64,000 nt of DNA, from assembly GCF_964204645.1 (NCBI RefSeq), contig NC_134028.1, positions 1,798,001-1,862,000 on the forward strand. The letters are read 5' to 3'. This DNA is from Tubulanus polymorphus (Eukaryota > Nemertea > Palaeonemertea > Tubulaniformes > Tubulanidae). Shown here piece after piece: positions 3,170-41,475 of the stretch. The stretch's first letter is position 1; every line of letters begins with the position of its first letter. The notes under the pieces are model-generated. The model did not search any database. It saw nothing but the letters and a program-made list of their open reading frames with translations, and was not told where the DNA came from. The position numbers and the translations under genes were made by a program.

Positions 3170-3278
<109 letters not shown>

Positions 3279-9846: not shown

Positions 9847-10851
9847 ATGGAATCATTTCTGAGCTATGTCCCCGATGAAAATGACGATTATTATCGAATC
9901 ATTGGATGCGACGAACTGTCAAGCGTAAGTTGATTCATTTAATTTAGTCAGTAACCTGACTGTGGTTTAGTTTCACGATCGGATATTTTCACAAACCACA
10001 GCTTGGTATAAGCTCATCCGATTATAAAAAGCTTACCACCAACGATTAGGTAACTAACTACATTTAATTAGGCTATTAATGCTTTGATTTTGAAAAGCCC
10101 CTTTTTGAATTTCAGAAAAATGAAGCTTCTATGGAAAAATCGTTTGTAAAACTTGTTGAAGAAAATTGAGTTAATAATTTAGATCCATATTTCCATTATT
10201 AGGTTGAGCAAATACTTACTGAATACAAGATAAAAGCTCTACAACTTCACCCAGATAAAAATCCCAATGATTTAACTGCAGGTATTTATTATCAAGTTGT
10301 AAAAATTCATCAGAGAATCATCGGTGAGGTTTATCGGTTTTCTTATTTTCTAGCAAAGCGATTTGCACTCTTACAACAAGCTAAAGAGGTTTTATGTGAC
10401 CCGGAATCCCGTGAGAAATATGACAAATGGAAACGTAGCGGAATACCGATGTCTTATAATCAGTGGTGCGCTATGAGTAACTCTGTTCATGTTGTAAGTG
10501 CAACTTTCTCTATTCCATATAGATATGAGATTTTAATTTAGATTATTCAAGCTCCATTCCTTTTGGACGTGTCAATTGATTTATATTACCATGAATTTCT
10601 AATAACTTTTAACTTTAGTCAATGCATTGGTCTTGTAAAAAGAAAGAAGCAATGATTGCTGATACGCCATTTTCCGCTTCAAAAGGTAATAATTAGTTCT
10701 CGTACTTAAAATTTGAAGAAAAAAATTTAAAGCAGAATTTGTTTAAGTTTTTTCTTTTTCTATCGTAGACAACGGGACGTCTGTGAAATGGTGGAAATCT
10801 GATCTACATTCAAACGATCGTCTTCGCAAATTCCGCAATTATGAAATCTAA
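9847..10851 (+). CDS. DNAJC12: DnaJ homolog subfamily C member 12 (J-domain co-chaperone)
   Basis: Five exons join in frame: 9847-9924, 10203-10281, 10354-10493, 10619-10685 and 10769-10851, giving 148 aa. The start follows gaaaaaATGG and gives the expected N-terminus. The J domain occupies about residues 14-80, with the CDELSSVEQIL phrase of DNAJC12 at helix I/II and the HPD motif at 42-44 that stimulates Hsp70 ATPase. The protein ends RKFRNYEI, the highly conserved DNAJC12 C-terminus. Vertebrate DNAJC12 is a cytosolic Hsp70 co-chaperone for the aromatic amino acid hydroxylases (phenylalanine, tyrosine, tryptophan), and a similar role is inferred here. At 148 aa it is shorter than the roughly 198-aa human protein because the linker between J domain and tail is compact. 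All introns are GT-AG and under 300 bp. Confidence 0.95.
9960..10062. repeat. dispersed repeat in DNAJC12 intron 1
   Basis: 9960-10001 has inverted ends ctgtggttt and aaaccacag. Its middle is shared, in reverse, with about 23315-23352 inside a P4HA intron. The following part, atccgattataaaaagctta and onward to 10062, recurs almost unchanged at 63927-63974. It is a small non-coding transposon family. Confidence 0.65.
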
Positions 10852-16207: not shown

Positions 16208-17971
16208 TCATCGTTCTTTGCTCGTTAGACGTTCAATTAGTTCTGATAGCGGAGCCAGCTCTTTTTTCTCGATCAAATTGAACTCTTGAACGAAGAATAT
16301 GAAATGTTTAAACGATGTGTTTAGATGCGGCTCCTCGCTCAATGACACAACCTCGCTGAAGTGTTGATGATATATATGTGCGTACACGCGGAACAAACGT
16401 TTCAATATTGTCTTCGCGATTGACAGGAAATTTTTCGGAAATGGAACGCCTGGAAAAGTTAATAATCAATACTCAGTTAACTAAACCTGTTTAATCCAAA
16501 TAATTTTGATCCAAATTTTAGATGGAAATTACCGTATTCACCTAAACGTATACAAGAAAACCCCCTTAATTCAGATCATTTGAGACAAACAAATTAAAGT
16601 TATTTTACATACATCAAAGGACCTAAATTCATCTGGATTCTGATCAAAATCCTGATTAAACTGATCACGATTTGACTAAGTGGGTTTCATTGTTTGACTT
16701 TTCAACAGGTACCGGTATCTTTGCATAAATTGGATTGGTCCAATATAAAAGTCATTCAGGGTTTAATACTATATTTTCACCTGCTAAAGGGGAACAACAG
16801 CTGAAATGTTTACAATCTCACTCACCAATTTTAGAAGGAAATATAGTTTCATCATCTAGTTGATTTTGGACCCAAGTCATTAGATAATCGATATATTTTG
16901 GTGCCGAACACTTGATCGGTTTTTTCACAGTCTGTCCATCTGCCCAATGGTATTCATATTTTGGCCCCGCTGACATAACCGGACATTTTTCTTCCATACA
17001 AAATTCCGTTATTGTTCCGTACAGCATGTTTATCTGATTGAAAAAATCCACAGCTGAAACGAGAAGAAAATGTACCTTAACATCAGGTAAGATTTTCATT
17101 CATCTCAAATCAAATAAATCCTGAAATTCTAAGATTAGGGCCACAGAGTTGAACAGGTGTTTAACGCCCCTCTGATGCAAGTGGTATCGTAATTTTGACT
17201 CCCGAAATTCTTAAATTCGTCTATTTTTTGACTATATACATTCTTCCTGGAAAAACTGTTCAACAGTTGCAGGTTACAAATATGACCCTTCTTAGTTTTA
17301 GGAATCATTTTTGGGGCAGGGTGCCGGGTTCGGGTTCATGAAAAAATTCAAGCTTAAAACTTCCAAGTTTGACTATAGTTCTGATCTAAAACATGGAAGT
17401 AACCGATAGCAATTCGAGTTTAACATTTTAGTGATATCGGGAGCAGGACTTTAAGAACTTACTATTAACAGCCACCCATTCATTGAGATCTTCACCCTCC
17501 GGAAGCATCACTGCTAATCTTAAATTACCACTACCCAGCGTCGCCGCAGCATGTTTCATTAAATCATACTGATGCGTTCCTTCAGGAATGTTCTTCTTCG
17601 GCTTGAATGTTTTGTTATTTCGGCTTCCACTGAAACGAACAGATTAAATATTTCCGTCATAGGAAACTGACGACAGGAACCTCACAATGAATCACTGAGT
17701 ATTGGTTGAGGTGCTTTGTGTATTTATCATTCAACCACCAGTTACACTGTCACCATCGACGGCTGTCTGAAGTCGATGAGTAGAGGAGGGCCGTAGAGGA
17801 GGTCGAGTTAGGAAATGGATTAGGGGTTATAGGCCTGAATTTAATACTATTCTTCAGTAGGTCACTGATCGAATTGATCCATCAGTTTTTAGTGTAAAAC
17901 AAGGGAGCTGTCAAACATTCCGAACCGGAAACGTCAAAATATACGAAGAATACTCACAATAAGAAGCTCAT
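16208..17971 (-). CDS. MOB1: MOB kinase activator 1 (Hippo/NDR kinase co-activator)
   Basis: Four exons on the minus strand join in frame: 17971-17958, 17629-17463, 17053-16826 and 16449-16208, giving exactly 216 aa, the usual MOB1 length. The first exon is only 14 bp (MSFL plus part of F). The zinc-binding pair C79 and C84 sits in EFCMEEKCPVMSAGP, and the histidine pair in AHIYHQHF. CSAPKYIDYLMTWVQ, DDETIFPSKIG and LNTSFKHFIFFVQEFNLI are MOB1 signatures and differ clearly from MOB2, MOB3 and MOB4. MOB1 binds phosphorylated MST/Hippo and activates LATS and NDR kinases in growth control and mitotic exit. The protein looks intact. A GGTCCAGTTTCAC-family MITE lies in intron 2. Confidence 0.97.
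17321..17450. mobile_element. MITE in MOB1 intron, relative of 3986-4114
   Basis: The middle phrase (ttcaagcttaaaacttccaa, later acatggaagtaaccgatagc and cgagtttaac) parallels the 3986-4114 element word for word with substitutions. The terminal repeats are more eroded. It has no coding content. Confidence 0.65.
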
Positions 17972-18308: not shown

Positions 18309-20546
18309 GAGTCGGTGGTCTGGGTGACAATCTCTCGTCGCACTTGCGAGATTGCGCCTTTTTCATTTCTTACGCCCTTCTTATTCCGTAGACAAAAGCT
18401 ACAAGAGATCAAATACTTCCATATTTAAGCTAGTTTTTATCCGTTAATTCTATTCGACTAATTTATTAACTCGACGTTTCGACAAGTGGTTTTCGTGTTA
18501 TGTGTGCTAAAACCCGGAAGTATTTTTTGCGCAAGATCTCCAAAGTTCTTCAAATCAAAATATAAGACGGAATTGCTTGGATTGTTACTTCTGTTGGCCA
18601 TCGATAACGCATTGATAAAAAGAGGATTGGTCAGAATCAAAGGGCCAGGTAAATAGTATAGTTTTATGTCTTTCCTCCGACTTTCGCCGGTTCAAGACCT
18701 GCAAAAATTAAGTAAGAAAGACTCCAAGTCAAGAGTCAAGACAATATTCGCGAGAAAAAAAGAGAAAGCTGCTGCCTGCGTAATGATGGGAACTGTGGAG
18801 CATAACGCTGAGTGATAGTTAATCCCTTAAGTCAGCTATGCTACATATACAGCTGGAATAGTTTAACCGAAGGCAAAAAAGTTGTCCTTGCCCCGCCTGT
18901 AAATAATTTCAAAAACAGATTCCACAAAATTTGGGAAGTCAGACAAAGCGTCCATCAGTCTCGACCAAATTGAACTTGAACTGAATAGTTGGACACATGT
19001 CTTCCTCTTTTTAGATACTCGGTAGACGGTCTTTCTTTAGACGTTTTTCACCGAGGCAACTAATTAAGATAGTATCTCGGTCTAACTGCAGTTTAGGTCA
19101 CCTTCCAGCAGAGTTGTGCCTTATTAGTACCAGTCATTCAACTACAGCTACATACCGGTACATACCGGTACTAGACTTCCATAATATGGACACTTAAACT
19201 GCGATCGTTCTGCATGAAAATTCAAGAAAGCATCAGAGAAATTTAAAAAGTCGGCATTTGAACCCACCACCTCCGGCTAAGCGCAATGTTCAACCTTGAA
19301 GTGCTCCAATGTTCAACCACCCCATTCTATCTATTTACTTATAGCGCCCTAAAGCCCATCATCAGATCTAACTCTGACAGAGTCAAATGTTTATCTCAAC
19401 CTTAAACTTTACCTTATCCTTAAATCTGGCCCTACATATCGAGTTACCCTTCAACCTTTTTGGACCCGAATTCTAAAGACCAAATTTTAACTGGGTTGCC
19501 CAAATATCACATTAGAATGATGCCATATTGGCAAAATATCCTCTTTTATTGCTGCAAACAGAGGCTAGCAGAAAAGGTGGCGTGACAAAAAAACATGATT
19601 CTGGAGTAAATCCAAGGTCCTACCTCCAACGTGGGAGGAATTTGGAAAGTTCAGGGGAGTTCACAACAGCAAAGCCTACTGATTTTACTTCCTAGATTAG
19701 AATCATATTGAAAATTATTTCATTCTCAGTTTAAGGTTCAGTCAACAAATCAATGTCATGTTCAAAATTCTGTGTTGGAAATGAATTTTTTCTTCATTTT
19801 TGCAATAGGCCTGATCTTGTTTGTACAATTTTTACAATATCATAGGCTATATCCTCCTGTGTGTGGTACAAGGCTGTTGTTATGTTTCTCAATGCATATG
19901 TGACTTGTCTCATGTAGTACTGATAGATAGTATTCTAACCACATGTTTTAGTGTTTAGCCGCGTATCGGTGCGTTCTACTTACAGCCTCACTTATGGGGT
20001 ACAAGGTGTTTACTCGGTAAATTACTAAATTAGGGAGAAATCAAGCCTTGCATAAAGCGTTGAATCAAATACGATTAAAAGAACGCTAATTAATTCACTG
20101 TATGACATTTGTATTAATAATGATGATTTATTGTAATGATAATTGACCCAGTATCAGAACTGTGTCGCTGTTATCTTTGCATCCCTTCATGAGCCTCATT
20201 GTGTAGATGTGGCACTTTGACGTGCCATGGTTTCGTTTTCTTTTTTTGAGGGGGTCGTATTACGAGTTGTTCGGTCTCACAGACTCCACTGACAGCCAGT
20301 TAAATAGGTTGGAACGTCATTTATGAAATAGCAAATATTTTAGAAGAAAATCATACCAAAATCCCATCATATATTTCCTAAGTTTTTTCTATTTAGTTCG
20401 GTGGTATTTTCTTAGGAACTTTGATTTAGAAATGAAGAACTTTTTTGACGTGGCACCTGTGAGATTTGTAACTGGTCCCTCTATCTTTCATTACAGTGTC
20501 TATATGAATTACTAGTCTATTCAGCAGTAGCTGCAGCAGTGTGAAA
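18309..20546. other. intergenic DNA between MOB1 and the P4H alpha gene
   Basis: The two genes point away from each other, so this stretch together with 17972-18308 should hold both promoters. I see no clear TATA box near either start and no exon. A repeated taccggta word occurs at 19154-19171. Confidence 0.5.
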
Positions 20547-23500
20547 ATGATGCATGCTGTGCCGATATTCACATTAATAATCATCGTCCAGTGTCACCGA
20601 GTCGTCGAGGGCAGCGGTGAGAAGTTCACCGCCATCATTGAACTGAAGAAAGTTTTACACGCCGAACGTGATATCGCTAATGAAATCGATGATTATATCA
20701 AAGCTGAAGAGGACCGTTTATCGAAACTGCGCAGGTCAGTATATACTTACTTAGCCTACTAATGTCTGTTTGACAAACCTGATTGGTCTGGCGCCTCCTT
20801 TTTCCAATCAGTTGTTGTTGAAAAATATATTGGGAAAATGTTAGTATTCGTTTTTTGAAAATAATGATTTTATAAGCAGGAATCAATTTTCTTATGCCGC
20901 TCGATGGGACTCAACGACAATAAATTTCTTGTTATTCAGCGTTTTGCCCCTTTCAAATTTGTTTAAAAAAAATGAGATTTACCAGTCTATAGGATAATAC
21001 ATTTCTTAAAAAGATTCGGTCCGTTTTGGATTTGTTTCTACTGAAGCCTGTGGTTTTTATTCTACATGAGCCTGTTTTCTATTGTCACTGTGATGAATAC
21101 AATAAAACCTGTGTTAGGAAGCATAGATATTCAGGCTACAGTTCTCAGTATTTCTTCGTTATGTGATGTGGTCTATAACCCGCATGAGCCTCTGGCAAAC
21201 TGAGAAATAAATGGTTTATTGAGAGCAATTGTTTATTTTCAGGATCTCTGCTGACTATAAGAAACACAGTCACGATGCTCTCCTCGACACTGAGAGATAT
21301 TTAGGCAATCCTGTCAATGCTTATTTGCTGGTGAAAAGATTTACTATCGACTGGAACAACATCGTTCAATCATTCATTAGTAATAGTACTATTCAAGGTA
21401 ATCAAGTCTGTATCTAGTGATGCATACTTCTTGGTGCTTACAAGTATTCAGGGTGGCCAATTACTGGAGATCAGGCAAGATTCGGGGAATTTTTTTTTCT
21501 TTTGAAAAGTCAGGTAATAGTCATGGAATTTTGTTTAAAAAAAGATTAGAATCAGAGAAGTCGGGGAAATTTGTTGAGATAGTCAGATAGTATTTGATTT
21601 TGAGGGTAGTCTCGGAAAATTCCAGGATAAAGCAAATCAAATGAAGGTGGCCACCCTGTTTTGTGAAAAATGATTTTATTCACAACAGAATCAACGATTA
21701 AATCGAAAAAAATCTTCGAGAAAGTTTTTAGATTTCTTTTTTTTTCTAAACAGAATTAGTGAATAAAATCAACACTCGTCAGGACGACTTCCCGGACGGC
21801 GATGACTTATCTGGCGTTATCACCGCGTTGCTGCGATTACAGGATACGTACCAAATACCAGCCTCAAAAATCGCGAAAGGAGAAATTGCCGGCGTCGATG
21901 GAGATAAGACCCCGGAACTTAGTGGTTAGTTTTGCGATGAGGTTTTCTGTTTAAATGTTCTCTTGAAGACAGTAATTTAACTCTTGATTATGATGAGATT
22001 TCATACTAACTATTCGTTGAAAACTAAACATCTATGATTGACAGTTAAAATATAGATGATTTTTTTTAGAAGATTCTGTTGATTCTTCTAAAAGTTTATC
22101 TAGATTTAGTATATTACTAATTGCTATTTTGCACCGGTCATCAATATGCTATCGTGCTATTTTGCACGTGAACTGGTCATCAATTGCAAGTTTGAAATAT
22201 ACCCTGATATGTGTGCATGGCTTCGTTATAGACAAATGCCTATATTCTCTGACAAATTTGACTACCATATCCCCCAAAATCCTTTAATATAGTTGTTATA
22301 GATTGAATGATTAATCAATAATGAGCTTATTTAAGTTGTCATTTCATAAAAGGTATTTATGATTACAGAGTAATATCAGTGGTAAGTGTTCACCTGTTAA
22401 AAGTGTCGCTTCAGTTATCTGCTCGCATACCGAGGGTAGTCATTTTTGAAAAATTATTAAGATTAGAATTGTTGACATTTTGACTTTTAAAAAAAGGTGA
22501 TGAAATGATGATTCCTGACAATGTTAGCGGATAATTGAACATAAAACGTGGTCTGGAGGTATTTTAGAAATTCTGGATTAAGTTTTAAATCTGGGGCGTC
22601 TGGTGTAGGAAAATGGAAAAGGATGAATCTACTTTGTCATTTCAGTTCATAAATGAATAAATGTGATACAAATTTTGTCTGAAAATTAGGCATGCTGCCT
22701 TCCTAGAATACAGTAGAACTCAGCTCTGAGATGCACAGTTGCGAAGTCTTAATGGTCAAATATGGCTATGGAACCACAATGAGCTGTATACAGATCATAT
22801 GTGTAAAGTCTTCACTGTGCAACGCGGACCCTGATCAGTAAAATTCAGGTTTATAGCATGAATATGCATGTACTATATTTGTATTATAGCTGCTGATTGT
22901 TTTGAACTGGGACGAGCGTCATATAATGTCGGAGACTATTACCACGCGATACCTTGGATGCAAGAGACATTGGATAGAATTACTCTACTCTCTGACCGTA
23001 CCGTCAACAAGGTTACAGTTCTCGATTACTTAGCATTCTCTATTTATAAGGTCAGTGCTCTTGTCAGACTCTAAAACGAAGAGTGTATCATTTTCGAGTC
23101 CATGTTCAGCCTGAATGTGAAGCCATCTTCAGTGAATGTAAATTAAGTAAGAATATAGATGTCTCTACCGGTGTCCTTAATTTCAATTCGAGTTTTCAAC
23201 GTAAAGGTGAGTAATTTGGGAAAATTTCCTGGCAGTCGATGACATAGTTACAAACATCTTCATTCTTCATGTAAGTAGTACTGCTATTTAGCTTTGTAGA
23301 TAGATCATTACCTAGTTTGTGAAAATATCCGATTGTTAAACTAAACCACAGACAAGCTACTAACTACTTCGTAGAGTGATATTACGTAAGAACGTTAATT
23401 AGAAAACCTTGCTTCACTTGTATATATAGACATAGATGCATGATGTACAATGCTTTCTCCATCCCTTTATTAGATTCACTAACGTATTATTTACTAACAA

Positions 23501-26500
23501 TATACCTCTAGTATTGATTATCATTGATGTTGAAAATGTTATAGGGGGCTGATTTGTTTTTTATGCCGGTACTGTTGGACTGGTCTTGTACTTCATTTGT
23601 ATTTGTTTTGCTAACATGTTTAGTAGTGTTAACCCTGTTGTATGTAGTCGTGATTGAGTTGTTAAATGCAGTTTTTGAGTTGTGTTTGTGGATCATTTTG
23701 TTTTTGCAGCCGCTGACAGTTTTTCTCTGGGTAGGTACGCGTATACGGAGGATGATTTCTATCATACGTTTATCTGGATGAGGCAGGCGTTAGACCAGGT
23801 AAACGCCGGTGATAGCTCTAAGGACTGGTCGACTATTGTCGACCATCTTGCTTTTGCTGCGATGCAAGTAAGTTAAAGTGAAATATCTTTTTAATTTTAA
23901 GAAAATCGCCAGCAACCTGGACCCACCCCTTAAGACATTTGTCACCAGTTTCAAAGTTTTTATTCATTTCAAGATGGCTTCACTTTCATTTCGTAGTACC
24001 ATCAAATCCTTGTTATCATTAGATTTATTTTGTCAGTTTTCAGTTTTTTTTTGGTCCAGAAAGTTCAGTCCAGAAAATCATTCCTTTCCTAATGTTTTCA
24101 TTTTCTAGCAAGGAAATATCAAGTATGCTTTAGACCTGACGAATCAGCTATTGGAAATTGGTAAAGATTTTGATAAATGTCTTCAAATATTTGAATAGAA
24201 CTCCGACCAACATAACTAACTGATGAAGCAATTTAAAAATAATGAATTTTCTTACTTTCAGATCAGTCTCAAGAGCGTTTATTCAACAACAAAAAACACT
24301 ACGAAGAACTTCTGGAAGCTAAAGCGATGAATGGTGAACCGATCTCGGATTCAATTAGGAACGAGCAACCGTCAAATCAGTATCAACAAGGCAGTGAATT
24401 CATTGTCTATGAGAAACTCTGTCGCGGTGAAGATACACATGTAAGGTTTGCCTTTATACGAAGACTTGTATTTAAATGCAGCCGTCTTCATTCAGCCGCT
24501 GAAGGATATTTGAATATGTACTATTTGTATGTAGTGTGAATGTGAAGTTATTTCTATTTCAGCCACAACCTCCGGCACGTGTTCTAGTGTGTAGTTATGA
24601 GGATTTTGGTCGACCCTGGTTGAAATACGGTCCTATTAAACAGGAAGTTGTTTACGATAAACCGAGGATTATCATTTTTCACGAAATTATGACCAACTCG
24701 GAAATGGATCGAATTAAAGAGCTTGCCGGACCGCGAGTACGTACTCTGATATACGTTAATAGAATTTGTTGGTCATTTCATTGAGAAAAGTTCTGCAAAT
24801 ATTTACGTAAATTTTTCAGTTGAACCGAGCGACTATACAGAACTCATTGACTGGAAAATTAGAATTCGCAAACTACAGAATTAGTAAAAGGTATGATGAA
24901 TATGTGGTATTGAATATATGCGGTATCTCGTTAGCTTTTCTGGGACTGGTTTTCATTCAAGATTTGCATCGTTATGATTGTTTGAACTCCCTCTTTTAGT
25001 GCCTGGTTAAAGGATGAACTGGATCCAGTTTGTAATAAAATTAATAGAAGAATCCGCCAAATTACTGGACTATCAGTAGATACAGCTGAGGATTTACAGG
25101 TAAATGCAAGAAAGTCTCTTCGGAGCATTGAAGATCCGTGCGCACAAATGTAGTTATTTTGTAGTTATTTTTTACGGTTGTGTTTTTGTTTTCAGGTTGT
25201 AAATTACGGAATAGGAGGTCACTACGAACCACATTTTGATTTTGCACGAGTAAGTTTTCGATGATTACTGGAGTGATCAAATCTCTATTTCAACATTGAA
25301 TAAATGTATCATAATTAGAGAAATAGATCTATTTAAATACCATTAAGAAATTTCATGAGTTTCAAAATAAGATCTATTCAATTTCAGGCTCTTACTTCAT
25401 TAATTTATCTTACAAATTTCAGTAAAATAAAATGCCACTTGTTTACTGTAAACCGGTACATAATAATGAACTGTATAATCTTATCATATATCAGAACTAT
25501 TTAGATATTTCAGAAGCACCTTCTTATTATATTATCATTCAAAAGCTAATGCTTGTATTGAGGAAATCAGTTTGTAAACTATCGGTCCTTCGTGAGATCA
25601 TGATCCACAATACGATCATGTTAGAAATTAGAATAGAAATAAATCTTCATTATTTATCAATTCAATGGCATCTTGCAAATAAAACTAAAAACTCACTGAA
25701 CTGTAGATATTTAGCACTTTTCAGGCCTAGCCAGCTTAAGATGACAATTTCTAAAATAATGAAATGTTCAAAATCATTGAATAATGCATTTAAAGATTAT
25801 TTAATTGCGACATTTCAGGAATCTGATAATGAAGTTACGTAGATTTACCGATTAAGATCAAATTCCTCATTTCATCTTGATGACTTCATAATTTTCTGAC
25901 AATTAACGTATACTACTGTACTTCTTTTTTTCTTTGATTCGAATCGAGCAATTGAATTCCAGTTAAAGCTATTTAATGTGGATGAAGAGTTTCGTTTCGT
26001 CCTCACGATCCGCATTAAATAGATTTATCTGTACTCGCTTCATCAGCATTCTAATATGAACTTGTTTGAAATACAGCGCAGAGAACCAAACGGTTTTGAG
26101 AAGCGCATGGGAAACCGTGTAGCAACTTGGCTTACATATGTGAGTCCTAGTTATACAAACCAAGCTTTATTACATTATTAGCACTATAGAGCACATATAT
26201 ATATGTAATTCATTTATATGAAGTGGATACAGTCCTTCAATCTAATACTAGGTGAAATTATGTCATCTTCGATGGATTGTGCAGCAATGCTTTGACCATA
26301 CTCTAGATTTCCCTAAAACAGACTGTATCCACTTCTGTTCAGTGCAAGTTATTTGTAGCTCCTTAAACCTTAGCCAGAATAGAATATATAATTGTGAATA
26401 GATTGTGGTATGTCAATGTGGCACAATGTCCTGTCATCGTCATCACGGTTGTGCTGAAAAGGTAATCAACTCCTGAATTTTAGGTAGTGTTGTAGTACTA

Positions 26501-29500
26501 CTATATTCATTTGAACAAATGTTTGGAATTACTAGTTAAAGCTATGAATTTTCTGGTACCAAAACCAGTAGCAAATCACAAAACATTGTTACAGATCACA
26601 AAAGCTGGTTGAAAACATCCTCCCCCGGCAGGGATTCGAACCTGATGGCATCGAGATTGCCATGGCACGAAACCCTGCCATAATCGACCGTGTGCGCAGA
26701 TACATGCGCAGTTCAGATGATGTGATTTTTAGCCAATCAGAAATCCCATTTTATTTTATCCCGGGTTTTCCCATTTATAGTTCTTCCTTGAAATTTGCCT
26801 CAACGATTATACAACGAGCAATCTGATTGGTGCCGCCAGTTTTCGTTCGGAAAGCTGCGCATGTACCTGCGCACCCGGTCTACTGATGCAGGGGTTCGTG
26901 CCGTGGCTGAGTGTAGCGATGCCATCAGGTTCGAGTCCCTGTAGAGGGAGGATGGTTGAAAATAGATGCGCTAGTTCTGACTGGGGTTTAGGGAGTTTAG
27001 AGCATTTTTGAACAGCCAATGAATAATCGATTCTAAGCTGCAAAAATGTTTCTAATCCTTACTATTATTTCGTATTACAGCTTAGAAGCACTTAACCCTC
27101 CACCCCTCATAGCATGTCATTGCTTACTGATCCTACATCAGCATTTTGTGTGTTCCTGCCATATGTTATTTGTTCACTCTATTTTTCTTCAGAAAGAAGA
27201 AAAAAATGCATTCAAATCATTGGGAACTGGTAATAGGATAGCTACCCTAATTTATTATGTAAGTTACCAGTTTAATGCAAGGCACACGAAGCTCAACTCG
27301 GAGATGGAACACTGAGCTCGACTCAAATGTCAACTTTCGGTTCAAACAGAAATTCACTTTAACTTCTTCATTGATAAGGCTTAACTATGTATTTTGTATG
27401 AAAATAAGAAGGGCTGACCTGAAGAAGTAAAGCTGAATACCTGAAAGAAAAATGATTTTAGGTATTTTTCAGTTTGAACAGAAAGGGGACACGAGCAGGA
27501 TGGTAGTTAAAAGTGGTAAAATTCTAAAGCATGTTGACCACAATTTATTTAAACTTACATTATATTTCTGCAACAGTTCAATACCTGGGAAGAAGCGATT
27601 TATCAGAAGATTTAATCATGAATGAATTCATATAGGAATTTTCATACAGCTTTTCCCTATCCTCCTAGACTGCCCCTTCATATGTACAAATTGAAAAATA
27701 GATTTCTAACTACAAAGATTTAATAGTTATACCATTATGGATAACAAAATGAGCTCTCTCTCTCTCTCTGTCTCTTAATCTTTAATCACCCGCCAGTTCC
27801 TGAAATGATATTGAATCTTAGAAATTGGATTCATCTGTCAAAACCCATTTCATAATTGTTAGACATAGCTGCACTTAAGTTGTTAATATGTCTTCTGGTA
27901 ATGTGTCCTATATGTTCATTATGTAAATGTTAGTACGTATATACTCATGGATCTATGGCTATAAGGGCTTTTTGACCAAAATCTTTCCCCTTAGTCCAGC
28001 ATTTCACTTTTTCACAAGGTTTTATGATAAGATCTTAGCTTACCTCATCATTAGTGTAAATAAACCTCTGTCTAGTTACAAAGTCATGAATGTACATGTA
28101 TTATCTATGTATTTATTTGTGTACGTAAATGTGCTTAACCAGAATTGGAAGATATTTGATATGTAGCCTTCTACATAAGAATGATTAAATTGTATATGAT
28201 TTCCATACCTCTGGAAAACATTTAAACTGATCCTTAAGACATGATTTTATTTGATAAAGATCAAGTAATGATACATTCTAGAATTTATATTCCGAGCGTA
28301 TTGATGTTTTTTTGGACAAATTTTTGGTAAATAGATTTGTAATATTTTTGTTTTTAGATGTCTGATGTGCAGGCTGGAGGTGCCACCGTTTTTCCATATA
28401 TCGGCCTTAAACTTTGGCCAGTAAAGGTACAGTTTCTGAGTTTGTGTTATGATCGTTTGGGACCAACAAAATTCATCCGGTTTAAGGGTGATACGGATTA
28501 AAACTCATTTTCAATTGTATTTCTATGAAGCCGATCTGTATTAAGCTGGTTTGACTGTATTTGGGTACAGGCAGCATTGGGAATTTTTGGATATTTTGCA
28601 TACCACTACATTGCGATCCTGTTAGGACCAAGTTTTTCAATTAAACAAGACTTGTATCTATGGCATGTATTAATTGTAGGGAGCAGCGGCTTTCTGGTTT
28701 AATTTACACGCTAGTGGAGAAGGAGATTATTTAACTCGTCACGCAGCATGTCCTGTGCTTGCCGGCTCAAAATGGGGTAAGTTAACGAATCAGTGATACC
28801 TTACATGTATTGAGTTATCGTATTCGATTACTTGAAATTGGAATATTTTCGATAAAAACAAACATTTGTTGTTTTGTAGAATTTTATAGTTATTTATACT
28901 TTTCAGTGTGTAATAAATGGTTCCATGAACGTGGCCAGGAATTTCTACGACCGTGCAAGTTACGACCAGATCATCCTGAACCAAATGAAGAATATTTGGT
29001 GGCTACAAAAGGCAGATTTGTAAACAGCGAATAGAGAAATGTATTTCGGACCCTCGTGCATTTTGCAATCGTAAATTTTCTCGTTACCAAAACAAATGGT
29101 CTGATTAAAGATAGAATTCAGATCATATCAAACAAGTTGAGAAATCTCAATAAGTCGGCAAAATGTTTTTTGAAACTACATGTATTAGAAAATAGTCTGC
29201 AATGTATATTTGTTTTTACATCACATTTATTAACAAAACTTCATCAAATCTTCTTTGTTATTTGTAAAAAAAAAATTGAAGAAATAAAAATACTTTGTAC
29301 GTTTTATTACATTTTTGTGATAAAATAAAATCATGATTATTAATTCTTTGTTATTATATATTCCGTTGAATTTTAATATCTTTAGAAGAGGAGGACAATC
29401 CAATGGACCAAAGGTGGATCTAGGGGTCTAAATTCTGTGCCCAATTATTTGGGTTGACAATCTACATGCTGCCTTACTATACCATAAGGTGCTGCCGCTA

Positions 29501-32283
29501 TGCTCATCGTTGGCGGAATTTTCTAACACTAATATCAACTGACCCTGGCAATCAACGTACTGTCTCAATGCACCGTAAAGTGCTGCCGCTTGGGATTTTA
29601 CGGCACATCGATTGCCAGAGTAAGTTCATCATAGTGTATGAAAATTCCGCTAACGACGAGCATAGCGGCAGCACCTCATAATTTAGTGAGATTTCTAACT
29701 ACGTGTACATGTACAAAGATTTACAACGTCATGAATGTACATGTATTATCTATGTATTTATGTGTGTACGTAAATGTACTTAACCAGAATTGGAAGATAT
29801 ATGATATGTAGCCTTCTACATAAGAATGATTGAAATGATTTCCATACCTCTGGAAAACATTTAAACTGATCCTTAAGACATGAATTGATTTGATAAAGAT
29901 CAAGTAATGATACATTCTAGAATTCATATTCCGAGCTAATTGATGTTTTTTGGAACAATTTTTGGTAAATTGATTTGTAATATTTTTGTTTTCAGATGTC
30001 TGATGTGCAGGCTGGAGGTGCCACCGTTTTTCCATATATCGGCCTTAAACTTTGGCCAGTAAAGGTACAGTTTCTGAGTTCGTGTTATGATCATTTGGGA
30101 CCAACAAAATTCATCCGGTTTAAGGGTGATACGGATTAAAACTCATTTTCAATTGTATTTCTATGAAGCCGATCTGTATTAAGCTGGTTTGACTGTATTT
30201 GGGTACAGGCAGATATTTTGCATACCAGTACATTGCGATCCTGTTAGGACCAAGTTTTTCAATTAAACAAGACTTGTATCTATGGTATGTATTAATTGTA
30301 GGGAGCAGCGGCGTTCTGGTTTAATTTACACGCTAGTGGAGAAGGAGATTATTAAACTCGTCACGCAGCATGTCCTGTGCTTGCCGGCTCAAAATGGGGT
30401 AAGTTAATGAATCAATGATACCTTACATGTATTGATTAATCGTATTCGATTTCTTGAAATTGGAATATTTTCGATAAAAACAAACATTTGTTGTTTTGTA
30501 GAATTTCATAGTTGTTTATACTTTTCAGTGTGTAATAAATGGTTCCATGAACGTGGCCAGGAATTTCTACGACCGTGCAAGTTACGACCAGATCATCCTG
30601 AACCAAATGAAGAATATTTGGTGGCTACAAAAGGCAGATTTGTAAACAGCGAATAGAGAAATGTATTTCGGACCCTCGTGCATTTTGCAATCGTAAATTT
30701 TCTCGTTACCAGAACAAATGGTCTGATTAAAGATAGAATTCAGATCATGTCAAACAAGTTGAGAAATCTCAATAAGTCGGCAAAATGTTTTTTGAAACTA
30801 CATGTTATTAGAAAATAGTCTACAATGCATATTTGTTTTTACATCACATTTATTAACAAAACTTCATCAAATCTTCTTTGTTATTTGTAAAAAAAAAATC
30901 GAGAAATAAAAATACTTTGTACGTTTTATTACATTTTTGTGATAAAATAAAATCATGATTATTAATTCTTTGTTATTATATATTCCATTGAATTTTAATA
31001 TCTTTAGAAGAGGAGGACAATCCAATGGACCAAAGGTGGAAATAGGGGTCTAAATTCTGTGCCCAATTATTTGGGTTGACAATCAACATGCTGCCTTACT
31101 ATACCATAAGGTGCTGCCGCTATGCTCATCGTTGGCGGAATTTTCTAACACTAATATCAACTGACCCTGGCAATCAACGTACTGTCTCAATGCACCGTAA
31201 AGTGCTGCCGCTTGGGATTTTACGGCACATCGATTGCCAGAGTAAGTTCATCATAGTGTATGAAAATTCCGCTAACGACGAGCATAGCGGCAGCACCTCA
31301 TGGTTTAGTGAGATTTCTAACTACATGTACAACGATTTACAACGTCATGAATGTACATGTATTATCTATGTATTTATTTGTGTACGTAAATGTACTTAAC
31401 CAGAATTGGAAGATATTTGATATGTAGCCTTCTAAGAATAATTAAAATGATTTCCATACCTCTGAAAAACATTTAAACTGATCCTTAGGACATGAATTGA
31501 GATAAAGATCAAGTAATGATACATTCTAGAATTCATATTCTGAGCTAATTGATGTTTTTTTTGGACAAATTTTTGGTAAATTGATTTGTAATATTTTTGT
31601 TTTCAGATGTCTGATGTGCAGGCTGGAGGTGCCACCGTTTTTCCATATATCGGCCTTAAACTTTGGCCAGTAAAGGTACAGTTTCTGAGTTCGTGTTATG
31701 ATCATTTGGGACCAACAAAATTCATCCGGTTTAAGGGTGATACGGATTAAAAGTCATTTTCAATTGTATTTCTATGAAGCCGATCTGTATTAAGCTGGTT
31801 TGACTGTATTTGGGTACAGGCAGCATTGGGAATTATTGGATATTTTGCATACCAGTACATTGCGATCCTGTTATGACCATGTTTTTCAATTAAACAAGAC
31901 TTGTATCTATGGTATGTATTAATTGTAGGGAGCAGCGGCGTTCTGGTTTAATTTACACGCTAGTGGAGAAGGAGATTATTTAACTCGTCACGCAGCATGT
32001 CCTGTGCTTGCCGGCTCAAAATGGGGTAAGTTAATGAATCAGTGATACCTTACATGTATTGAGTTATCGTATTCGATTTCTTGAAATTGGAATATTTTCG
32101 ATAAAAACAAACATTTGTTGTTTTGTAGAATTTTATATTTGTTTATACTTTTCAGTGTGTAATAAATGGTTCCATGAACGTGGCCAGGAATTTCTACGAC
32201 CGTGCAAGTTACGACCAGATCATCCTGAACCAAATGAAGAATATTTGGTGGCTACAAAAGGCAGATTTGTAAACAGCGAATAG
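20547..32283 (+). CDS. P4HA: prolyl 4-hydroxylase alpha subunit (collagen P4H)
   Basis: Exons: 20547-20734, 21243-21397, 21754-21924, 4A 22890-23050 or 4B 23710-23867, 24109-24160, 24262-24440, 24563-24736, 24820-24890, 25000-25099, 25196-25249, 11A 26077-26139 or 11B 27193-27258, then one of three three-exon terminal cassettes. With 4A, 11A and one cassette it gives 553 aa, near the family's ~530. A signal peptide (residues 1 to about 23) precedes the P4HA N-terminal domain (IKAEEDRLSKL), the TPR-like peptide-substrate-binding domain (about 140-245) and the C-terminal 2-oxoglutarate dioxygenase domain. Iron ligands are H430 and D432 (YEPHFDFAR) and H500 (TRHAACPVL); K510 binds 2-oxoglutarate. 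The enzyme forms a tetramer with protein disulfide isomerase in the ER and hydroxylates X-Pro-Gly prolines of procollagen. The exon architecture is unusual (see separate entries). Confidence 0.93.
22890..23050 (+). CDS. P4HA: P4HA exon 4A (substrate-binding domain, alternative)
   Basis: A 161-bp exon with acceptor tattatag and donor aag|gtcagt. It encodes AADCFELGRASYNVGDYYHA and continues to VTVLDYLAFSIYK. It starts in phase 1 and ends in phase 0. It keeps the tyrosine-rich DYY and DYL..xxY pattern of the canonical P4HA peptide-binding groove, so it is probably the constitutive version. Confidence 0.88.
23710..23867 (+). CDS. P4HA: P4HA exon 4B (substrate-binding domain, alternative)
   Basis: A 158-bp exon homologous to 4A, with acceptor tttttgcag and donor caa|gtaagt. 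It encodes AADSFSLGRYAYTEDDFYHT and continues to STIVDHLAFAAMQ. It has the same phases as 4A, and both give a smooth join to exon 5 (QGNIKYALDL). Because each exon is 3n+2 long, including both or skipping both shifts the frame. Several groove tyrosines of 4A are replaced (DYL to DHL, SIYK to AAMQ), so this version should bind a different proline-rich peptide, or bind more weakly. Confidence 0.85.
26077..26139 (+). CDS. P4HA: P4HA exon 11A (catalytic domain, alternative)
   Basis: A 63-bp phase 0-0 exon with acceptor aaatacag and donor tat|gtgagt, encoding RREPNGFEKRMGNRVATWLTY. It follows the exon with the HxD iron ligands and precedes MSDVQAGGATVFP. It is homologous to 11B about 1.1 kb downstream. 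It was hidden because the intronic frames on either side are short. Confidence 0.85.
26607..26960. mobile_element. inverted-repeat element with tRNA-like ends, between exons 11A and 11B
   Basis: The left end (ggttgaaaacatcctccccc and onward to gatggcatcg) and the right end (cgatgccatcaggttcgagt to ggaggatggtt) are inverted repeats, and the pairing continues inward (tgcgcag/ctgcgca, cacgaaaccctg/caggggttcgtg). Each end, read outward, carries ggttcgaatcc/ggttcgagtcc, an RNA polymerase III B box. The right end also has tggctgagtg, an A-box match, about 28 bp before it. It looks like two tRNA-derived SINE-like sequences head to head, or a MITE with tRNA-like termini. Confidence 0.7.
27193..27258 (+). 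CDS. P4HA: P4HA exon 11B (catalytic domain, alternative)
   Basis: A 66-bp phase 0-0 exon with acceptor tttttcttcag and donor tat|gtaagt, encoding KEEKNAFKSLGTGNRIATLIYY. Its KSLGTGNRIAT pattern is the canonical version in vertebrate P4HA1 and P4HA2, which also have an alternative exon at this same place. Inclusion of both 11A and 11B would keep the frame, so exclusivity is expected from homology rather than forced by phase. Confidence 0.88.
28358..29034 (+). CDS. P4HA: P4HA terminal cassette 1 (exons 12-14)
   Basis: Exons 28358-28426, 28680-28776 and 28907-29034. They encode MSDVQAGGATVFPY and onward, then GAAAFWFN...SGEGDYLTRHAACPVLAGSKW, then VCNKWFHERGQEFLRPC and an acidic and basic tail ending RFVNSE. 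The cassette supplies the distal iron ligand H500 and the 2-oxoglutarate lysine K510, so every functional transcript needs one intact cassette. All splice sites are GT-AG. Being nearest to exon 11, it is the default candidate. Confidence 0.9.
29488..29675. mobile_element. 188-bp fold-back MITE (GGTGCTGCCGC family), copy in P4HA cassette 1
   Basis: The ends ggtgctgccgctatgctcat and atgctcgtcgttagcggaat (read inward from each side) are inverted repeats. A second inverted pair, gcaccgtaaa/ttttacggcac, lies in the middle. It sits at the downstream end of each triplicated unit. Family members with different middles lie at 40074 and 40574. Confidence 0.85.
29996..30656 (+). pseudogene. P4HA: P4HA terminal cassette 2, broken by a nonsense codon
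   Basis: Exons 29996-30064, 30302-30398 and 30529-30656 have intact splice sites and are nearly identical to cassettes 1 and 3. In exon 13 the codon for L497 is TAA (30353-30355) where the other two copies have TTA. A transcript ending here would stop three residues before H500, lacking the distal iron ligand and the 2-oxoglutarate lysine, so the product could not be an active hydroxylase. It could be a dead cassette or a way to make inactive or decayed transcripts. Confidence 0.85.
31110..31297. mobile_element. 188-bp fold-back MITE, copy in P4HA cassette 2
   Basis: Same structure and nearly the same sequence as 29488-29675, at the same position in the second duplicated unit. It moved by duplication of the unit, not by independent insertion. 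Confidence 0.85.
31607..32283 (+). CDS. P4HA: P4HA terminal cassette 3 (exons 12-14)
   Basis: Exons 31607-31675, 31929-32025 and 32156-32283. It encodes the same peptide as cassette 1, including the TTA leucine codon and the H500 and K510 equivalents. Exon 13 shares a synonymous gcg with cassette 2, where cassette 1 has gct. Use would require splicing over cassettes 1 and 2, including their stop codons and polyadenylation signals. Confidence 0.85.
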
Positions 32284-32723
32284 AGAAATGTATTTCGAAC
32301 CCTCGTGCATTTTGCAATCGTAAATTTTCTCGTTACCAAAACAAATGGTCTGATTAAAGATAGAATTCAGATCATGTCAAACAAGTTGAGAAATCTCAAT
32401 AAGTCGGCAAAATGTTTTTTGAAACTACATGTATTAGAAAATAGTCTACAATGTATATTTGTTTTTACATCACATTTATAAACAAAACTTCATCAAATCT
32501 TCTTTGTTATTTGTAAAAAAAATCGAAGAAATAAAAATACTTTGTACGTTTTATTACATTTTTGTGATAAAATAAAATCATGATTATTAATTCTTTGTTA
32601 TTATATATTCCGTTAAATTTTAATCTCTTTAGAAGAGGAGGAAAATCCAATGGACCAAAGGTGGATCAAGGGGTCTTGATTATTTGGGTTTGACAATCTA
32701 CATGCTGCTTCACTATACCATAA

Positions 32724-32911
32724 GGTGCCGCCGCTATGCTCATCGTTAGCGGTACTTTAGAACACTAATATCAACTGACCCTGGCAATCAACGTACTGTC
32801 TCAATGCACCGTAAAGTGCTGCCGCTTGGGATTTTACGGCACATCGATTGCCAGTGTAAGTTCATCATAGTGTATGAAAATTCCGCTAACGACGAGCATA
32901 GCGGCAGCACC
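32724..32911. mobile_element. 188-bp fold-back MITE, copy in P4HA cassette 3
   Basis: Third copy in the triplicated array, slightly more diverged at the left end (ggtgccgccgc). Homology between the three units stops just after it, so the element marks the array boundary. Confidence 0.82.
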
Positions 32912-33047
32912 TTATGGTGTAGGGAGACATCGCACCCCAAAGTTCCGCCTCTAAACTCAACAACCGTTGATTAGATGTTACCAAAATCATATGTATTACA
33001 TTTCGACACTTGAACTTTCAATGAATTCCTAATATTTCGAATGGTAT

Positions 33048-35190
33048 TCAGTTTTTCACGGTAGCGGCTGGCATGGACGACGGTCGGCGTAGCGATGCGA
33101 TTAAGTCGCACACGAACGTCGGTAGGATATTCAGGATGGCGAATTTCAGTTCGATTTTCCAGTTGGGGACGTAATGAAAACGAGGTTCGCTACGGCGCAC
33201 CGCTTCCTCGATACAGTCTATCACTTCACACACATTAGCCGAACACAGAGTATCCAACAACTTGCGGATCAGATCCAAATATGAGTTGAAATAAGCGTCT
33301 CCGTACGCTCGCTTACATTCGTCGGCGGCTGATGCCCAGAACTCGACGTTTCTGTCAATTTGACGTTGCACTTGAACCATTGGTGTTCTTTGAAAAAAAA
33401 CACAAATTGACATATTATACCGGTACCTTAGAGTGGCTGAACATCTGGACCCAGTTCCACATTTGTGAGTTAGAGTTAACTCTGAGTTAAAATTAGTTCA
33501 TTTTCAATGAGTTAACTCAGGGTCAAATCTTAACTCCGAACTGTGGAACTGGACCCTGGACAATTATTTAGGCAGAACTATAACCACACTCAAACGTGGT
33601 GAACGGATAATAAGATAAAATCCCACTATTTACAAATTAAAATAATTTAAAAACCAGAAATTTATTTATTCAATCTAAAATATATAAAAGACACGACGTT
33701 TCGATCTCACCCTAGAGATCATCACCTGACGATGATCTCTAGGGTGAGATCGAAATGTCGTGTCTTTTTGACTATTTTAGATTGAATAAATAAATTTCTG
33801 GATTTTTAATTCTTTTAATCTGTAAATAGTGGGATTTTATCTTATTATATAGGCAGATTTCTAGACCCCTGGTTTAGTTCTGCAGATCTGAGTTAAGATT
33901 TCACTCATAGTTAAAACATTGAAAATTAAATGATTGTAACTCAGATTTGTAGAATTCAAACTCACAACTGTGGAACTGGATCCTGTTGTTTTGCCAATTC
34001 ATCTTTATCTCACCATAATACTACGATTACTTACTTGTAGAATCCCGGTTCGATAGTGACGACTTTGACTCCGAAAGATTTCATTTCCCTTCGTAAACTG
34101 TCCGAAAAAGCGATACAGGCTGTTTTGGACATACAATAGGCAGAAAATCCTGGGATAGCGAACCTTCCTGTAAAAAGACACAACTTTTCAACTGATCATC
34201 GTTCATGATAATTTCGTACTCGTGGCCAATTCGGGCAATAATAAAAATAAGTGTCATTTATATTTCAACGAATTGGTGCATTAAAAATTCTTTAATCAAT
34301 CAGTACGGATTCACGGTGCGAACGTTTGTTGAAAATGAATTACCAGCGAGACTCGCTACATTTACGATGCGGCCTTTTCGTTGGCGAATCAATGGAAGGA
34401 ATGCTTTCGTCATACGGACCACGCCCAATGCATTTACGTCTAACGTCTGTTGATATAGTGAAATAGGACACCATTCACTTTCGGCACATTGTGCCACACC
34501 GGCATTATTCACTAATGCCCATAATCCTGCAAAAACGCGTATTTTCGTATTCTAAAATCATTATAAATCCCACACATACAAATAGCTCCGTAAAACCTCA
34601 TTATTTACGTAATCATGCTCTTAACGAACTATTCGGAAAAATTTGCTTACCTTTGCCTTCGACAAAACCTTTTACGTATTCAACCGCTCGCGTAACGTCA
34701 TCGCCGTCAGTAACGTCGAGTTTCAGAATTTCTACGTCGGGATGTTCGATTTTCAAATTGCTGGCGCCGTCTGCGTCCGGAAACATGCACGCAGCGAATA
34801 CTTTAAAACCATTTCTAGTCAACCGGCGTGCTAATGCATTTCCGAAACCACTATCGCAACCTTAGAAAATATATACATCAATTTCACATACATGCATCAA
34901 TATAACATATTCGGTTCTTTACGGAGCTGATGGATTATAATAACTTTAGTATGAAATTAGTTTCACGTCGAAATCTAGTGAGATTCAAAAATAACCGCCG
35001 CCCCCTACTTACCGGTGACGAGAACGGCTTCCTTTCCGGAATCTCCCGAAATTAAGTCTCCATTCGGTAATCTCCGGTAATAGAAAGATACTCCAAACAA
35101 TACAATCAACGACGTTATAAATGTGAGAATTCCTGGCCAGACGTAAAGTACTCCAGTAATTAAAACAACTGTTCCGAATAATTCCTTCAT
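33048..35190 (-). CDS. short-chain dehydrogenase/reductase, SDR9C-like (RDH/17-beta-HSD6/BDH1 type)
   Basis: Five exons on the minus strand join in frame: 35190-35013, 34860-34651, 34526-34344, 34167-34035 and 33387-33048, giving 347 aa. A hydrophobic N-terminus (residues 6-36) suggests a membrane anchor. The Rossmann cofactor motif TGCDSGFG lies at 59-66, NNAG at 136-139, and the catalytic Ser188, Tyr201 and Lys205 (YCMSK) are in place, followed by EPGFYKTPM. TGCDSGFG with this layout is typical of retinol dehydrogenases, hydroxysteroid dehydrogenases of the HSD17B6/DHRS9 group and 3-hydroxybutyrate dehydrogenase. The substrate (retinoid, steroid or hydroxy acid) cannot be fixed from sequence. 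The C-terminal 100 residues are variable in the family. Intron 4 holds several fold-back elements. The start is the only ATG ahead of the hydrophobic segment. Confidence 0.9.
33445..33558. mobile_element. fold-back element in SDR intron 4
   Basis: ctggacccagttccacattt at the left pairs with gaactgtggaactggaccctgg at the right, and gagttaactc words pair inside. The ends resemble the GGTCCAGTTTCAC family. A related, more eroded copy with ctagacccctggttta and gtggaactggatcc ends lies at about 33860-33983. Confidence 0.7.
33582..33850. mobile_element. palindromic Penelope-like terminal element with hammerhead-like core
   Basis: 33605-33715 is repeated as an inverted copy ending near 33848, so the two arms face each other around 33720. 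At 33726 the plus strand reads CTGACGA, then a stem gatctc...gagatc closed by a 6-nt loop, then GAAA (33752-33755) and tgtcgtgtc. CTGANGA, stem II and GAAA form the conserved core of hammerhead ribozymes, known in the terminal repeats of Penelope-like retroelements. The opposite arm carries the more usual GAAACGTCG but has GTGATGA for CTGANGA. A single-arm relative lies at 8168-8300. No RT or GIY-YIG frame is present. Confidence 0.6.
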
Positions 35191-38929: not shown

Positions 38930-41475
38930 ATGGCTGTAAATCGAGTTCTTTATAGGATTGCCAAACCCAATGATAAAGAAGACATACTGAACATCATTAG
39001 CTTCGACAACGACGATAGATTCGATCGTTTACATGAAGATATTGACCAACATTTGAACAGCGAAGGAACTGTTCTACCGTATGTCGCCTTGGTTAATAAA
39101 CAGGTAAGTGATTTTACTAGTGTCAGGGTCGAGACAAAGATAAGATGTATACTTTAGATTAAAGCCCGGATTTAACTAGTTCCAAACGAACTCAAGATAT
39201 GGACCCGTTTGCGGACATAATCACGCAGAAAACGATGAGAAGGCGCAACATTTTTGAGCGCCTGTGGGATATTTTCCAATTTTGATTTCGCAGGCTGTGG
39301 GGCAGGTTTAGGAATCAAATACATATAACTGAAATTTGTTGTTTATAAATAATCTATAAATCGTTCATTCTCGCCATTTATTTCGTTTGGTATTACAAAT
39401 ACGTATCTGCAGGGGTATGTCTTTGGGTCATAATAACACGCCCGAAACAACTGATCCGATCTATCCATTCAGTAAATGAATGATTTTTCCTAATCTTCAG
39501 GTGATAGGTTACCTAGCTTTCGTTTTGAAAGATATGGATGAATCATTTCACTACATCGCTGCGCGAACCAACAAAAAGTATCAAGGTCAAGGTATCCAAA
39601 CGCGTCTGCTCTATTTTGCTACTAGTGACGCTAGGCGCCGACATCCGAGCGTTATGAGTAGAATGTCCGTGGTCACTCATACACCTTTTACAGATGAAAA
39701 ATATGCCCTGGCACATGGAGAAAAGGTTTTAATGATAAGGGTAAGTCCACGAATATTCTAATCAACTCATCATCATCACCAAGTTCTACCTCATCAGTAG
39801 CAATGCATCCTGGGTAGTATACAGTATACTGCCTTTCCAATCATTTTGTATTCAAGTTTTATCATCTTTTAGCTCTGAAAGAATTTATCTATGAAAGTGA
39901 ATAGTCATAACCTGGGACTGTTCGTTTCTCTTCCATTAATTTAAGTGCCGATGAATGAAAATATAGTCAGTAATTACTGGGTTCGAACCCGGGACACCCC
40001 TGTACATTCAGCATCAGGACCACTCTAACCAATCAGTAATTACTTTTGTTAAGATATCAACATTTAACCGCATGGTGCTGCCTCTATGCTCATCGTTAGT
40101 GGGATTTTCATACACTAACGTTAGTCAACTCTGGCAAGCTAGGACAGCACGTCGATTGCCAGAGTTGACTTTAGTTAGTGTATGAAAACCCCGCTAACGA
40201 TGAGCATAGCGGCAGCACCGTACGGTCTGGACACCCCAGTACAACCTCTATTCAGCATCAGGACAACTCTGAATCAGTATCAGTAATTACTGGGTTCGAA
40301 CCCGGGACACCCCCGTTCATTCTCTATTCAGCATCAGGATCATTCTGAATCAGTATCAGTAATTACTGGATTCGAACCCGGGATAATTACTGGTTCTCGA
40401 ACCCGGGACACACCCCTGTGCATCCTCTATTCAGCATCAGGAACACTCTGAATCAGTATCAGTAATTACTGGGTTCGAACCCGGGACACCTCTGTACATC
40501 ATCTATTCGGCATCAGGATCACTCTAAACCAATCAGTAATTACAATTGTTAAGATATCAACATTTTACCGTACGGTGCTGCCTTTATGCTCATCGTTAGT
40601 GGGATTTTCACACACTAACGTTAGTCAACTCTGGCAAGCTAGGGTTACGGAGTATAACTGGACAGCACGTCGATTGCCAGAGTTGACTTTAGTTAGTGTA
40701 TGAAAACCCCGCTAACGATGAGCATAGCGGCAGCACCGTACGGTCTGGACACCCCAGTACAACCTCTATTCAGCATCAGGACAACTCTGAATCAGTATCA
40801 GTAATTACTAGGTTCGAACCCGGGACACCCCTGTACATCCTCTATTCAGCATCAGGAACACTCTGAATCCGGTGTTTTTATTTTCAGAGAACTACTTCAT
40901 TTAAGAGTGTGGACATTAAGTCTTTACAATTGGCGGCTGCTGAAACGATTTCGAGACCAGAATTCCGACATTTATCATCGCGTGCATTTAAACCGCAACC
41001 AAACCAAGTATCGTCATTTTTACTCGATTCTGGAGTTAAATCTAAATTATTTCCAAACTCGGTGGCTATTTGCAATTACGTTCCTTACAAATTGCAATCG
41101 GAATATCTACTCGAAGCGGATCCAAAATTTCAGGAATTCACGATAGTTCTCGGAGATTCTCGCGCACCACCCGCTATTTCAAGCCTCAGTTTAAGCGAAA
41201 CGACGCCGCTGTATAAGTGTCAAGGTTACCGTTTAGATATTGATATCTACTCGAAGAATTCGGAAGAAGCGTTCATTCATTTTCTCCACCAAATTCGTCT
41301 CCACAGTCGGTTTAAAGATGACGGTGAAATTCTGATGATACTCCAGTTAGAAAACGACAAAAAGATTCAGACACAATTTGAGAGAATGGCCGAGAATTAT
41401 CTCAATTTAGAAGTCAAAACCACCCGCGAATATTCGATTGTACTCGAGCATTCCTTCCATCATGTTCTAGCGTGA
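38930..41475 (+). CDS. GNAT acetyltransferase, NAT16/histidine N-acetyltransferase-like, copy 2
   Basis: Three exons: 38930-39103, 39501-39740 and 40888-41475, giving 333 aa, with the same intron phases as copy 1. Motif A (YQGQGIQTRLL) is intact. Exon 1 is clearly diverged from copy 1 (GLDYL has become RFDRL), whereas the first two-thirds of exon 3 is almost identical at DNA level, and divergence returns toward the C-terminus (from LRDQFKDD against LHSRFKDD). Intron 2 is about 1.1 kb because of a cluster of B-box repeats and two MITEs. The change at GLDYL and neighbouring residues suggests a different acceptor amino acid. Both copies look functional. Confidence 0.85.
40074..40219. mobile_element. 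fold-back MITE (GGTGCTGCC family)
   Basis: Inverted ends ggtgctgcctctatgctcat and the reverse complement of gatgagcatagcggcagcacc, and an inner pair gttagtcaactctggcaa/ttgccagagttgactttagt. It shares its ends with the elements at the P4HA triplication. Confidence 0.82.
40574..40737. mobile_element. fold-back MITE (GGTGCTGCC family), second copy in the intron
   Basis: Almost the same as 40074-40219, with an added ggttacggagtataac segment in the loop. The terminal repeat can be extended outward as accgtac on both sides, so the full element may be 40567-40744. Confidence 0.82.

Follow-up and report, generated by a model that had tools for sequence, protein, structure and literature searches.

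Related arrangements, in Drosophila pip and in hydra, are already in print, and the event described here is of a known kind. In pip, tandem homologous 3' cassettes stand behind a common 5' part, as they do in the P4HA gene analyzed here, and in hydra, gene-end cassettes are likewise repeated, each copy being bordered on one side by a short repeat element. Partial gene duplication, which yields incomplete gene copies, is reviewed in PMC3449122, and the P4HA tails are also incomplete gene copies. For P4HA1 itself, PMC11868403 states that either exon 9a or exon 9b is included, in a mutually exclusive manner. Among the papers listed by the literature searches, no title or start of an abstract described a P4HA 3' triplication, the searches for lola/mod(mdg4) cassettes and for tandem duplications with the last exon and an intact copy returned nothing, and the main text of PMC9741552 does not mention P4HA.

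We found that the alpha subunit of collagen prolyl 4-hydroxylase (P4HA) is encoded on the + strand, at 20547-32283 of the window (the whole 64-kb stretch of DNA that was analyzed), and that its GT/AG-joined exons, when they end in the first of three tail units, give a 553-aa enzyme. The Pfam domains P4Ha_N, TPR_P4H, and 2OG-FeII_Oxy_3 are present in this order, all above their cut-offs, which places the gene in the P4HA family, and the best solved structure matches are P4HA2 (7zsc) and P4HA1 (4bta). The exon borders were drawn from splice sites, reading frame, and homology, and the exons upstream of the tail units are as follows:

20547-20734, + strand: exon E1
21243-21397, + strand: exon E2
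21754-21924, + strand: exon E3
22890-23050, + strand: exon E4a
23710-23867, + strand: exon E4b
24109-24160, + strand: exon E5
24262-24440, + strand: exon E6
24563-24736, + strand: exon E7
24820-24890, + strand: exon E8
25000-25099, + strand: exon E9
25196-25249, + strand: exon E10
26077-26139, + strand: exon E11a, phase 0, homologous to E11b, upstream of the triplication
27193-27258, + strand: exon E11b, phase 0

The likeness within the E4 and E11 exon pairs exists at the protein level only. E11b, identical to E11a at 9 of 22 aligned positions, is likely its alternative partner; the pair sits in the catalytic domain, and the inclusion of both keeps the frame (576 codons with the stop). E4a and E4b are homologous, with 20 of 53 aligned positions identical, and both match Pfam TPR_P4H, covering in each case the first half of the TPR domain that binds the peptide; given that together they shift the frame, the pair looks mutually exclusive, which would give two substrate-binding variants.

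Around this gene, the Pfam scan of neighbouring genes covered three pieces, namely a DnaJ domain piece (10203-10538, + strand), a Mob1/phocein piece (16821-17099, - strand), and, downstream on the opposite strand and facing the triplicated gene end, a short-chain dehydrogenase piece (34303-34551, - strand). The window also holds a G-rich minisatellite at 2208-2713, with periods of 24 and 48 nt among others, and 44 CAG units at 3172-3303, which a 93-codon open frame of the + strand would read as polyglutamine; no Rfam match at the gathering score and no tRNA were found in the 64 kb.

The preliminary description of this DNA had held that the last three exons, with the stop codon, 3' UTR, and poly(A) region, are present three times in tandem, the rest of the gene being single copy, and both parts were confirmed. 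The direct copies, spaced 1609-1645 nt in the repeat search, the splice sites, and the AATAAA signals establish the former, and a self-comparison of 20000-28084 (word 11, E 1e-4) the latter, since nothing else in the window matched the upstream coding exons at the DNA level and the remaining matches were intronic. What we have here is a 3'-end partial tandem duplication, in which the gene end alone was copied side by side into three units of about 1.62 kb. Each unit contains the coding exons A (69 nt), B (97 nt), and C (128 nt including the stop), a 3' UTR, and a hairpin-forming, MITE-like repeat; this last element and a premature stop in exon B of unit 2 are additional to the preliminary description. 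All acceptors end in AG (TAG before A1, CAG before A2 and A3), the donors after A and B start with GT, C closes with the stop, and two AATAAA and one ATTAAA are present per unit in matching relative positions. From the repeat search and the splice sites, the units and their parts are:

28076-29690, + strand: unit 1
28358-28426, + strand: exon A1
28680-28776, + strand: exon B1
28907-29034, + strand: exon C1, with the stop at 29032-29034
29283 and 29324, + strand: AATAAA signals of unit 1
29473-29690, + strand: MITE-like element of unit 1
29721-31312, + strand: unit 2
29996-30064, + strand: exon A2
30302-30398, + strand: exon B2, with a premature TAA at 30353-30355
30529-30656, + strand: exon C2
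30905 and 30946, + strand: AATAAA signals of unit 2
31095-31312, + strand: MITE-like element of unit 2
31337-32925, + strand: unit 3
31607-31675, + strand: exon A3
31929-32025, + strand: exon B3
32156-32283, + strand: exon C3
32530 and 32571, + strand: AATAAA signals of unit 3
about 32710-32925, + strand: MITE-like element of unit 3

Within the A-B intron, a dispersed short repeat lies at 28451-28529, with genome copies that are 76-91% identical. The MITE-like element of unit 1 (218 nt), an inverted repeat, folds into one long hairpin of -113.7 kcal/mol, with shuffled sequences giving a mean of -51.1 kcal/mol (z -13.4, 0 of 200 as low). In the genome, at least 133 stretches match it, those at this locus included, with 40 of 564 candidates scored; its relatives in the window are found at about 40.1, 40.6, and 9.65 kb, and the two stretches resembling it at 40074-40744 adjoin tandem repeats of 76-103 nt.

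When the unit without its element (28085-29470) was searched against the 267.8-Mb, 77-contig assembly, three full-length matches, all at this locus, and no fourth unit were found among the 40 of 176 candidates scored; the other 37 of these 40 matches, considered as extra copies elsewhere, were rejected as small fragments of the A-B intron (query 359-477). At the protein level, 30 matches came from the genome-wide search, in which 34 of 34 candidates were scored, and outside this gene the tail exons (query about 450-524) matched at 8 separate places in seven 10-kb loci. Apart from two adjacent genes in locus L049 on contig C1, each having its own N-terminal matches, none of these 8 outside matches showed a tail repeated beside itself. 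The closer look at the seven 10-kb stretches is weak taken alone, as they extend just about 0.6-2 kb past the tails, the first gene of L049 excepted. Exon C alone went undetected in L048, L050, L052, and L053, with L048 giving a read-through match only, and in the paralogs the A and B parts form one continuous match, so that the A-B intron may be absent there.

The site patterns of the three units switch between 29365 and 29368 (LLR 10.8, 2 of 2000 permutations as high): before the switch, 19 sites single out unit 1, 13 unit 2, and 10 unit 3, and after it 20 of 25 sites single out unit 3. On the left, the noncoding distances are 21/899 between units 2 and 3, 29/899 between units 1 and 2, and 28/899 between units 1 and 3, and on the right they are 6/365 between units 1 and 2, 22/365 between units 1 and 3, and 24/365 between units 2 and 3. 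As judged from these patterns, unit 2 is a hybrid, its left part unit 3-like and its right part unit 1-like, and it was probably made by unequal crossover after one duplication. The inner junctions bear on where that duplication started:

29682-29743, + strand: junction of units 1 and 2, with the join TTTAGTGAGATTTCTAACTAC
31304-31359, + strand: junction of units 2 and 3, homologous to the former but diverged

In the window, TTTAGTGAGATTTCTAACTAC is present at 29682 and 31304 only, and AGATTTCTAACTAC, which is part of it, is also found at 27700, so that the first duplication probably began near 27700, with about 350 nt presumably lost at the junction. In this first step, a segment starting in the intron that follows E11b and ending shortly beyond a MITE-like element downstream of the poly(A) signals would have been duplicated in tandem, leaving a complete gene followed by a second 3' end that lacks a promoter. 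In the second step, to which the mosaic points, the two diverged units would have mispaired, and an unequal crossover would have created the middle unit, with its left from the downstream copy and its right from the upstream copy. The two distances that date this second step, between units 2 and 3 on the left and between units 1 and 2 on the right, agree with each other (P 0.52). The distance between units 1 and 3 is lower on the left than on the right (P 0.025), whereas a simple two-step history predicts equality, and therefore the left and middle of the units would have been constrained, converted, or otherwise slowed. Since every unit carries a stop and poly(A) signals of its own, the protein would survive the duplication intact; the upstream exons would join unit 1, which the polymerase reaches first, whereas the other two units would be redundant, unit 2 later acquiring its nonsense codon. 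We consider it reasonably probable, from the genomic sequence, that this was a recent two-step partial tandem duplication of this kind, with the upstream exons spliced to unit 1, units 2 and 3 redundant, and the copies partly selected.

The evidence for selection comes from the divergence of the copies, which amounts to 1.6-6.6% in noncoding and at most 0.7% in coding sequence. It had been proposed that the exons are nearly unchanged next to introns with indels, through selection or gene conversion, and the exon versus intron comparison supports the contrast and, of the two causes, selection. Variable gap-free columns number 2/294 in coding and 66/1268 in noncoding sequence (one-sided Fisher test, 7.5e-5), or 65/1264 in the latter when cut at 29686, counts that exclude columns gapped in any copy and columns after 29686 or of the 'junction' class. 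When three exon-length blocks were placed at random on the noncoding columns, two or fewer variable sites were obtained in 8 of 100000 placements. The coding deficit persists against the upstream intron, inner introns, and UTR together (39/899, P 0.0008), against the inner introns and UTR (22/640, P 0.0075), and against the inner introns (15/367, P 0.004), and it is suggestive only against the 3' UTR alone (7/273, one-sided P 0.071). Noncoding GC sites are more variable (30/406) than AT sites (35/858), and therefore composition does not account for the deficit; after base-class adjustment, 16.5 variable coding sites are expected and 2 are seen. These two are GCT/GCG at 28691, synonymous by inspection, and the B2 stop. 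Left of 29310, no coding change private to unit 3 was seen with 3.3 expected (uncorrected P 0.038), and one private to unit 2 with 3.6 expected (uncorrected P 0.126), these expectations being those of units 2 and 3 simply unused; one change sets unit 1 apart from the others with 5.9 expected (uncorrected P 0.019). Because of this deficit in units 2 and 3, pure redundancy fits badly, and selection appears to be the best account of the coding conservation. The copies may have been selected during at least part of their history, which would have kept the coding exons nearly unchanged, whether because unit 3 was used to some extent or because crossovers shifted copies into the first, working slot. 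Some gene conversion within the unit middle is also possible, given that the inner introns and UTR are less variable than the outer unit parts (44/628, P 0.005), a difference that speaks against a constraint on coding sequence alone.

The nonsense codon of unit 2 is the TAA at 30353-30355 in exon B, where units 1 and 3 have TTA (28732 in unit 1). A path through B2 stops at 496 aa, so that the final 57 residues, which start with LTRHAACPVL, are lost. We equate the His of this segment with the second histidine that binds iron in the human enzyme, and the Lys of SKW with the 2-oxoglutarate lysine of that enzyme; the H-x-x-C-P...K-W motif is present in 8 of 8 paralog tails (7 loci). As the nonsense codon precedes this catalytic His/Lys segment, the enzyme is not obtainable from unit 2 alone. 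Nonsense-mediated decay usually needs 50-55 nt from the stop to the exon end, and with 43 nt the B2 stop falls inside this limit, so the B2 mRNAs might escape it. Among the four serial paths tried, A1-B1-A2-B2-C2 and A1-B1-A3-B3-C3 both stop at 513 aa, A1-B1-B3-C3 ends at 518 aa, and A1-A3-B3-C3 remains in frame with 576 aa; therefore, the units would need to act whole, as alternatives.

The best placed alternative, unlikely in our opinion, is that units 1 and 3, together with individual unit 2 exons, serve as alternative terminal cassettes in the manner of Drosophila pip; the protein would then be the same whichever tail is chosen, the UTRs would differ slightly, and damage to one copy would be buffered. 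All three units have, as a pip-type array of mutually exclusive terminal exons should, an acceptor, a final stop, and AATAAA signals, the downstream copies have too few coding changes, and 6 of the 10 ordered A-B-C paths give the identical 553-aa protein. On the other hand, the remaining 4 paths run through the nonsense exon B2 and are shortened, so that the earlier proposal of alternative terminal cassettes for one mRNA stands for the 6 paths and fails for the 4, and, unlike a pip-type array in which every cassette completes the protein, here only units 1 and 3 do so. Besides, the proteins are identical and the 3' UTR copies are 97-98% alike (4-5 substitutions and 2-4 gap columns in 271-272), a poor footing for UTR switching, which weakens the suggestion of different 3' UTRs on the same protein and leaves little to gain from a choice; moreover, the unit 1 poly(A) signals precede those of the other units. 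This order, the damage in unit 2, and the similarity of the UTRs speak against a regulated choice of tail, and the coding-change deficit of the downstream copies speaks for some use of them. More doubtful still is that selection maintains an array of gene tails able to stand in for one another, all of them used in turn or mixed, in which nonsense in one would be tolerated and repeated unequal crossover would renew the catalytic end.

Less probable again is an assembly artefact in which the two haplotypes of a locus with one or two copies were joined in tandem. The 1.6-6.6% divergence of the units may fall within what alleles show in some marine invertebrates, of which this animal would need to be one; alleles would likewise show a mosaic and coding conservation, and the mis-join of two haplotypes with two units each would give the same mosaic. 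Against this, TTTAGTGAGATTTCTAACTAC is confined, within the window, to the two inner junctions, which differ from each other, so that at least one true tandem junction must have existed long enough to mutate, and being homologous yet diverged, these junctions make an assembly error less likely. In addition, the window contains no N, the longest contig seen has 32 Mb, and no other full-length copy was found among the 40 of 176 candidates scored, this last argument being weak since purged assemblies lose such copies. Very improbable, finally, is gene conversion homogenising the middle of otherwise free copies, which would explain the near-identical exons, the less variable inner introns and UTR, the lower distance between units 1 and 3 on the left, and the no more than suggestive contrast of coding sequence with the UTR alone, but is disfavoured as the whole cause by variable sites 3 to 17 nt from all six exon edges (the right edge of C being the coding end), which would require tracts to end at exon borders three times, and by the variable 3' UTR, which conversion via spliced cDNA should have homogenised too.

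Under the two-step duplication, unit 1 most likely serves as the functional gene end, with unit 3 as an undamaged reserve and unit 2 in decay, a division of roles read from the sequence and to which the A1 acceptor, TAG versus CAG at A2 and A3, lends no preference for unit 1. It looks like an interesting but ordinary young local duplication, and not a proven new switch. Its interest is that the locus would represent an early and still readable stage in a possible origin of tandem terminal cassettes: its history probably took two steps, every unit ends in a hairpin resembling a transposon, one copy is already broken, and the coding exons are still conserved. If unit 3 is used, the locus would be a recent natural experiment on whether arrays of this kind begin as neutral redundancy or are selected from the outset.

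Compared with the known systems, the E11a/E11b pair seemingly is the counterpart of the P4HA1 exons 9a/9b of PMC11868403, which are diverged and internal, unlike the 3' triplication. In contrast to the partial duplications reviewed in PMC3449122, the P4HA copies stay in line with their parent gene, so splicing into them is possible. Hydra repeats first exons, whereas the P4HA locus repeats last exons with poly(A) signals, and, unlike in Drosophila pip, the putative P4HA cassettes encode the same residues, with one of them broken.
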